Below are positions 26,804 to 57,247 of a stretch of DNA of 57,255 nucleotides, one piece after another. How positions within the stretch are numbered: the stretch's first letter is position 1; each line of letters opens with the position of its first letter. Position numbers and translations under genes: made by a program. The DNA is from an uncultured Saprospiraceae bacterium. GTDB lineage: Bacteria; Bacteroidota; Bacteroidia; Chitinophagales; Saprospiraceae. The stretch is from assembly GCA_937921595.1 (NCBI GenBank), contig CAKZTD010000009.1, positions 1 through 57,255 on the forward strand, given 5' to 3'. The notes under the pieces are model-generated. The model was not told the DNA's origin. It was given only the letters and a program-made list of their open reading frames with translations, and ran no database searches.

Positions 26804-27157
26804 ATGAATGGTATAATTGGACTAGGCAAGTACTTGTTTGCAATCCCCATGGGAATTTTTGGAATTATGCATTTTATTGCTGCTGATCAAATGGCCGCGA
26901 TGGCTCCAGGTGGTAAATTTATGGTCTACTTTACAGGACTTGCTCTTGTTTTGGCAGCTGTGAGTATTATCATTGGAAAAATGGATAAACTCGCATCGGT
27001 TCTATTAGCAGTGATGCTTTTGTTATTTATTATTCCACATGCTCAAAATATGGCAAGCGATGAATCTGAGATGTTTAATATTCTTAAGAATATTGCAATG
27101 GCGGGCGGTGCTTTATTATATGCAGGACAAGCAAAAGATGATGCAGTGATTGGATAA
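26804..27157 (+). CDS. DoxX-like small membrane protein
   Basis: A 117-residue protein with four hydrophobic helices: FAIPMGIFGIMHFI, FTGLALVLAAVSIII, LASVLLAVMLLLFII and IAMAGGALLYAG. The IPMGIFGIMHF start and overall spacing resemble DoxX/DoxD-like quinone-associated membrane proteins, but the match is loose. The ATG at 26804 is preferred over 26750, because the latter lies at the presumed transcript start and its 18 extra residues are polar. Its stop codon overlaps the first stem of the structured RNA element at 27155, so that RNA would be part of its 3' untranslated region. Confidence 0.7.
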   Translation: MNGIIGLGKYLFAIPMGIFGIMHFIAADQMAAMAPGGKFMVYFTGLALVLAAVSIIIGKMDKLASVLLAVMLLLFIIPHAQNMASDESEMFNILKNIAMAGGALLYAGQAKDDAVIG

Positions 27158-27311
27158 TAATTGATAAGTAGACGTAAAGAATCAAGTTGAATCGTTTTGA
27201 TATTCTGAAATTTTCATTAATAATTGACTGTAAGGAGGCTGTGTTGAAAAAATTGGGATATCTTAAAAAAAACGATTTAACTTAATTTAGTCCAATAACT
27301 TAGAATTATTA
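27155..27311 (+). ncRNA. Candidate structured RNA, copy 1
   Basis: A 157-nt rod. P1 pairs 27155-27162 and 27165-27169 with 27304-27311 and 27298-27302. Next is a symmetric 10 by 10 internal loop (AGACGTAAAG opposite TAGTCCAATA). P2 pairs 27180-27198 with 27269-27287 (18 of 19, one G-U). P3 pairs 27199-27215 with 27246-27262 (15 of 17, three G-U). The apical loop has 30 nt. About 86% identical to copy 2 at 57020-57177, with P2 differences that are compensatory. G-U pairs exist only on the plus strand, which favours plus-strand RNA. No promoter is seen directly before it; it may be the 3' end of the DoxX-like transcript. Confidence 0.7.
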
Positions 27312-27368
27312 AGTAGTTAAGTTACTAAAATAGAGGCTTGCTTTGTTTTGATGACTTAACTACTTGAT
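27308..27368. repeat. Inverted repeat of the ACTACTTG family
   Basis: AAGTAGTTAAGT (27311-27322) is perfectly complementary to ACTTAACTACTT (27354-27365). Wobble or Watson-Crick pairs extend the stem to at least 15 bp. It directly abuts structured RNA copy 1 and continues GATAACTTGTTTTTCC, so it may act as a terminator. Confidence 0.6.
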
Positions 27369-27392
27369 AACTTGTTTTTCCTTCTTCTTTCT

Positions 27393-56730: not shown

Positions 56731-56793
56731 AGTGTTTGTTCATAGTTTTTGTTTTTTGTTTTATCCCCCCGATGAACTCGGGGGGACTTTTTT
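56731..56793 (+). terminator. Repeat leader plus GC-rich terminator, unit a
   Basis: AGTGTTTGTTCATAGT begins a T-rich segment of about 35 bp, followed by a CCCCCCGA/TCGGGGGG hairpin (56765-56785) and a T-run. The leader recurs at 57182 (about 36 of 38 bases) and, more weakly, at 56949. Confidence 0.75.
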
Positions 56794-57019: not shown

Positions 57020-57177
57020 TAGATCGATTTTAAGAAGACGTAAAGAATTATGTTTAATCTGTTTGATATTCTGAAATTTTCATAAACAATTGACTGTAAG
57101 GGAAATGTGTTGAAAAATTTGGGATATCTTAAAAAATAGATTTAATATAATTTAGCCCAATAACTTAAATCGATTTA
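57020..57177 (+). ncRNA. Candidate structured RNA, copy 2
   Basis: A 158-nt rod with the same plan as copy 1. P1 pairs 57020-57030 and 57032-57034 with 57167-57177 and 57164-57166. P2 pairs 57046-57064 with 57134-57152 (18 of 19, two G-U). P3 pairs 57065-57081 with 57112-57128. The internal loop (AGACGTAAAG opposite TAGCCCAATA) and the strand GATATTCTGAAATTTTC are conserved. The P1 arms differ in sequence from copy 1 but still pair. A terminator follows about 40 bp later, so a free-standing small RNA is plausible here; its promoter is not clear. Confidence 0.7.
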
Positions 57178-57181
57178 AGAT

Positions 57182-57247
57182 AGTGTTTGTTCATAGTGTT
57201 TGTTTTTTGTTTTGTCCCTGTCAATGCCAGTTGACGGGGCTTTTTTT
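57182..57247 (+). terminator. Repeat leader plus terminator, unit c
   Basis: The 38-bp leader is nearly identical to unit a. It is followed by a 9-bp stem CCCTGTCAA/TTGACGGGG (one G-U; 57216-57239) and a run of seven T. It would end a transcript containing structured RNA copy 2. Confidence 0.8.

Follow-up and report, generated by a model that had tools for sequence, protein, structure and literature searches.

A gene-free mobile element in Saprospiraceae whose rod-shaped fold keeps its pairing across genera

Two parts of the window, by which we mean the whole 57,255-nucleotide stretch of DNA analysed here, fold into similar rods, raising the question of whether they are copies of a conserved functional RNA or of a mobile DNA. 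An earlier note made from the sequence alone had favored the first answer, and much of what it described is borne out. It found about 117 of 136 aligned bases common to 27166-27302 and 57032-57168, and we count 119 identities in 138 alignment columns; at three pairs that it reported as changed on both sides (27185/27282, 27194/27273 and 27195/27272) copy 1 has A/T, G/C and T/A as described. The computed fold runs in the order it had given, through P1, an internal loop (9-10 nt per side), P2, P3 and an apical part. Two details have to be redrawn. The 30-nt apical loop is correctly placed, but it contains another short stem with a GA/GA internal loop. P1 pairing in both copies holds for about 5 bp (TAAGT/ACTTA), which recur elsewhere, while the rest is flanking DNA: beyond TAAGT/ACTTA, flanks pair within their own copy at chance level (4.62 versus 4.59 when shuffled between copies, p 0.44, 32 copies), and a long P1 was rejected as part of the element. 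The features are listed below; covariance model R1, cited there, was built from 28 copies, and a wider model, R2, from 96.

27165..27302, plus strand: element copy 1, subfamily A, from TAAGT to ACTTA (BLAST and alignment; R1 match 27162-27304, 138.9 bits)
27165..27169, plus strand: P1 5′ arm TAAGT, partner ACTTA at 27298-27302 (fold and alignment; outer limit of recurrent sequence)
27170..27178, plus strand: end-proximal internal loop, 5′ side (AGACGTAAA), facing 27289-27297 (fold and alignment; conserved in subfamily A)
27179..27198, plus strand: P2 5′ arm, partner 27269-27288 (fold, inverted-repeat listing and covariation)
27199..27216, plus strand: P3 5′ arm, partner 27245-27262 (fold and covariation)
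27220..27242, plus strand: apical stem-loop with GA/GA internal loop, GA 27226-27227 facing GA 27235-27236 (kept between genera)
27263..27268, plus strand: one-sided A-rich bulge on the 3′ side at the P3/P2 boundary (fold and group consensuses)
57031..57167, plus strand: element copy 2, subfamily A, about 87% identical to copy 1 (BLAST and fold; R1 match 57028-57169, 133.4 bits)

Both copies have repeats as neighbors. A second inverted repeat (27306-27370; 30-nt arms, 80% complementary, 5-nt loop) adjoins the 3′ end of copy 1 and sits directly before a truA-like frame at 27372, a frame with a Pfam match. Copy 2 is flanked by a 37-nt direct repeat, 95% identical (56731-56767 and 57182-57218), each unit being followed by a GC-rich hairpin and a T-run.

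Folded singly, the plus strand of copy 1 reaches -30.9 kcal/mol against a shuffle mean of -20.1 (z -3.28) and that of copy 2 reaches -32.4 against -18.0 (z -4.57), with neither value equaled in 200 shuffles. For copy 1 the minus strand, too, folds more stably than most shuffles (z -2.91, equaled by 3 of 200), and for copy 2 it is no better than shuffles (z -0.13). Plus-strand rods are likewise formed by five copies from other genomes (z of L099 -11.5, L080 -7.3, L133 -5.2, L083 -6.8 and L074 -5.4), and three of the seven copies tested have a minus strand that does equally well by shuffle z (L099 -11.1, L080 -7.3, L074 -5.5). Under DNA parameters the plus strands of the window copies hardly rise above shuffles (z -1.4 and -1.7), whereas under RNA parameters both clearly do; the fold of one copy from genome G021 is significant under either set. 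This comparison of parameters weakly favors RNA over DNA as the form in which the element would fold.

The number and spread of copies also bear on what the rods are. The element codes no gene and is 132-143 bp long, about 140. A BLAST search with copy 1 against the window genome (8.04 Mb, 465 contigs) gave 41 matches. One copy was matched as two pieces, and each of two pairs of matches at contig ends seems to be a single sequence, which leaves about 38 places. The related copies seen in the window are real, but they belong to about 38 dispersed places and not to a two-copy RNA gene. Two subfamilies in this genome have a common core and different ends. The covariance-model search of Bacteroidota that the earlier note had proposed found multi-copy homologues, all within one family: R1 hits 8 of 148 genomes and 5 of 129 genera, all of a single family, presumably Saprospiraceae, and R2 hits 13 of 396 in the order, within the same family, both genome counts including the window's own. 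A phylum sample gave one R2-positive genome among 395, the window genome itself; scans of more than 40 genomes used stricter filters, by which weak matches may be lost. The homologues, with as many as about 40 copies in one genome, are patchily distributed among related genera. A loop pattern scanned over named genomes found 13 stretches, 11 in one Chitinophagales MAG and 2 in Saprospiraceae MAGs. The plasmid collection searched contained no match to the element, and viral contigs gave two pattern matches, neither supported by R2 at E 0.01. In G065, a genome in a single contig, a P2-arm pattern marks 83 sites, most of them paired at a spacing of 87 bases, which amounts to roughly 40 copies, full or shortened. 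Mean identity among 26 that were aligned is 92%. Genome G001 carries tandem copies with a common junction.

Some copies have themselves received insertions. Small GC-rich palindromes of the CCTGCC...GGCAGG or CCCGATA...TATCGGG type lie in loops, bulges and arms of copies in the window genome (L021, L025, L027, L033), in G001 (L067, L115, L118, L145, L146) and in G065 (L111, L112, L151, L152, L154, L156, L158, L171, L175, L189), where several copies have the same insert. Two further G065 loci, L173 and L182, resemble the element at their ends and in having P2 arms that covary, but their core is unrelated, and on this comparison element cores may be exchangeable.

Insertion sites carry a record of movement. 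With the boundary set at GTGACGG...TTAC, 16 of 18 G065 copies show a duplication of the three adjacent bases (3 of 21 with unrecognised ends being omitted), against 8.8 after shuffling, and 0 of 5000 shuffles are as high. In G021 a 3-bp duplication is found in 13 of 17 copies (2 of 19 omitted likewise; shuffled 3.8), by a one-base shift of the boundary that was picked after viewing the sequences, the first setting having given 0 of 17 at k=3; targets there include TTG, TTT and AAA. The duplicated target is mostly TWA, and the flanks conform to Y-TWA-R and little else. No target duplication was found in 10 usable copies of genome G071 (15 read, 5 omitted for unrecognised ends), and none was detected in 32 copies of the window genome under 324 boundary settings; an invariant TA flanks most copies in both, and shuffling cannot test such a TA. 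Target duplications, which the earlier note had named as a mark against its own reading, thus occur in G065 and G021, with none shown for the window genome's own copies. Additionally, the site of one G065 copy is empty in a sister species, G303: the alignment runs on without a gap when the flanks are joined around a single target copy (309 of 405 columns) and breaks there with the filled sequence. That G065 copy gives a gene its stop codon, and the protein end otherwise shows only ordinary divergence.

The element is therefore a MITE-like, non-autonomous mobile element, being shorter than 500 bp, without coding capacity, dispersed in many copies and, in G065 and G021, associated with target duplication. 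Its dispersal, the target duplications in two related genera and the empty site tell against a two-copy functional RNA that is not mobile DNA; the expectation that the ends of a mobile DNA should be its best-conserved part had been applied to flanking DNA mistaken for P1. The window genome, G065 and G071 also contain end-only copies of about 30-60 bp that keep the two ends and look like shortened forms. Because several of their junctions lie at short direct repeats, these may be post-insertion deletions and not mobile units. Given such copies, the rod may be dispensable for movement.

Hairpins in bacterial MITEs are usually taken as a by-product of inverted ends. The compensatory changes first seen between two copies extend far beyond them. 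Two-sided cells number 58 in 28 window-genome copies, where shuffling gives 20, and in 95 distinct copies from 8 genomes two-sided changes occur at 44 of 50 pairs, with 970 cells against 306. In this latter alignment (A5), which was fitted to the structure model and leans towards it, 90.9% of cells pair, compared with 42.5-53.7% in slid controls. Within a young G065 group all 14 two-sided changes keep pairing, where independent change predicts 0.6 and a moved-partner control gives 1; the corresponding counts are 28 of 34 in subfamily A of the window genome (expected 9.1, control 9) and 19 of 38 in G021 (expected 9.3, control 14). Between genera the sequences of P2 and P3 differ and their pairing stays, together with the GA/GA apical loop, a UAA before the apical stem, the A-rich one-sided bulge and an offset end loop; at 21 unpaired columns one base is common to 10 or more of the 13 sequence groups. 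By covariation in these alignments the element folds as a structured RNA would.

The same changes could arise in a plain palindromic MITE under no single-strand selection, its arms held complementary by quasi-palindrome template switching and its core being a DNA-protein site or simply inherited. We regard this as a possible account, though not the probable one. Two-sided changes among copies that average 92% identity fit templating, the three copies named above have minus strands that match the plus strand by z-score, and end-only copies exist. Templating should nevertheless erase bulges, and between genera the one-sided bulge is kept, as are the offset end loop and the GA/GA motif. It should also erase standing wobbles, yet among the 646 consensus pairs of the 13 groups (defined by us, one of them a single sequence) 43 are GU and 11 are AC. 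Templated repair explains these retained features poorly; it may still contribute, and arm-to-arm templating may account for part of the covariation.

The wobbles also speak to the choice of strand. Counted by pair columns, the consensus excess of GU over AC is 20 to 5, and the plus-strand consensus is the more stable of the two in 10 of 10 groups, the difference ranging from 1.3 to 17.6 kcal/mol. The plus strand contains more G than C in 10 of 10 groups, so that part of the GU excess is expected from composition, as a plain MITE would have it. The earlier statement that wobbles appear only if the plus strand is the RNA thus holds as a tendency (43:11) and not as a rule. Variants common to at least two copies, tallied in the same author-defined groups, comprise 32 GU and 11 AC, while singletons are nearer to parity at 55 and 43, again in keeping with a plain MITE; the contrast between the two classes is borderline (Fisher p 0.059). 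We read the excess among shared variants as constraint on copies that seed new copies, and mutation bias may be another source. From these patterns in the alignments we infer that the plus strand probably works as RNA. Promoter-like sites are about as frequent as chance predicts (5, against 2.6 expected, sd 1.7).

Selection might instead act in the host. Other bacterial MITEs have been reported as processing or insulating sites in untranslated regions, and rods in transcripts could serve here in the same way, harmful copies being lost. In a crude open-frame test covering 97 of 116 copies, 36 lie between divergent genes, 34 are codirectional with the element, 20 are opposite and 7 lie between convergent genes; the excess of codirectional over opposite copies falls short of significance (p 0.076). 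Copies are thus mostly intergenic and rarely between convergent genes, with gene calls that are crude open frames, and this agrees with a host-level function, as does the insertion that supplies a stop codon and leaves the protein end unchanged but for ordinary divergence. Selection on each inserted copy should, on the other hand, bias singletons too, and those stand at 55:43. We judge a host-level function to be improbable.

We looked for a mover of the element from its ends and from transposase genes. The left end marks 46 sites in the window genome, and the 14 further regions read, with loci L032 and L040, yielded no parent element. The right end marks 74 sites in G065, of which about 31, by hand count, lie outside the main group; no parent was found among the 20 of these 31 that were inspected, or among 18 of 27 left-end sites read in G071. 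DDE_Tnp_1 genes gave 43 rows in 7 genomes, and among 30 loci read none has a transposase with the element's ends; end-like motifs occur at four (L234, L242, L250, L261). L178/L250 (G065 near 2963938) is an element copy interrupted by an IS that has GGGGTTGTGTAAAAAG ends and contains a 565-aa DDE frame. Four other copies of this IS are without the element's ends beyond the IS.

A different machinery would be a Y1 (HUH) transposase recognising the folded strand of a single-strand DNA element of the REP or IS200/IS605 kind. Besides the folded strand itself, this explanation can point to two Y1_Tnp-type genes in the window genome, L055 (G000:C131), beside a frame that resembles radC, and L056 (G000:C333). 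The 3.2-3.3 kb around both genes contain no element match, however, and target duplications, present in G065 and G021, are not expected from Y1 transposition. On these grounds a Y1 mover and an IS200/IS605-like ssDNA element were rejected, and we hold the explanation to be very improbable.

The reading that we put forward as rather probable is a mobile element, moved in trans by a transposase, whose single-stranded form, probably plus-strand RNA, must fold. A DDE-type (cut-and-duplicate) transposase would recognise the ends and move the element, and the single-stranded form, most likely a plus-strand transcript, would have to adopt the rod for a copy to keep multiplying. The fold could take part in mobilisation or could render insertions harmless to the host. 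We lean slightly towards mobilisation because the wobble excess is clear in shared variants and weak in singletons. In its strictest form, which we consider unlikely, the element would be a transposable structured RNA, with a plus-strand fold required for mobilisation, for example as a scaffold or guide bound by the transposase acting at the ends; if that were true, selection for jumping would maintain RNA structure in a gene-free element. With pairing, bulges and apical motif kept across genera, a possible dependence of a gene-free transposon on the folding of its transcript or single strand becomes testable. G065, with about 40 similar copies on a single contig and an empty site in a sister species, is convenient for separating selection on structure from arm-to-arm templating.

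Among known systems, the RNA families of Rfam offer no counterpart. The comparison with all Rfam models that the earlier note had suggested returned only a tRNA at threshold on the window and, for seven element loci searched with E values as high as 1, six matches that all fall below their gathering scores, none of them near threshold. 6S RNA resembles the element in being a rod with a central internal loop, but the element stands in tens of dispersed copies without an Rfam match, and 6S RNA or any other Rfam family was rejected. A literature search, within a coverage that excludes most subscription journals, found no description of this element family.

Among mobile elements, IS5/IS1031-type and PIF/Harbinger (Tourist) elements use TNA or TWA targets. 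They are alike in the 3-bp T-W-A duplication and symmetric Y-TWA-R target; the element differs in having no transposase gene, and no such IS with its ends was met among the 30 DDE_Tnp_1 loci. Inward of their 5-bp outer arms, the ends contain GACGG and CCGTC, displaced against each other by about 5 nt, and after these come the long inverted arms. REPs, as described in PMC3733652, are 20-40 bp long with stems of 8-9 bp and loops of 4-5 nt, and those of CGTC type are reported there from Bacteroidetes without a known dedicated transposase. CGTC-tagged REPs are likewise palindromic and dispersed, and the element's GACGG/CCGTC recalls their tag. Full copies of about 140 bp, however, are 4-5 times longer than these single stem-loops and have a conserved internal structure, so that membership in the GTAG/CGTC REPs was rejected; the length also counts against Y1 movement.

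The element also resembles Correia/NEMIS, ERIC, RUP and BOX, bacterial MITEs with folding transcripts, of which Correia transcripts are cleaved by RNase III and ERIC transcripts show RNase E effects, according to PMC10969869 and, for the class, PMC3049150. Like the element, these are short, AT-rich, intergenic, gene-free, dispersed and hairpin-forming, with target duplication. Neither paper contains 'compensatory' or 'covari'. Compared with these families as described there, the element has ends that are not simple inverted repeats and no parent IS in the ends and loci read, and its fold is kept across genera despite changed stems, together with its bulges and apical motif.
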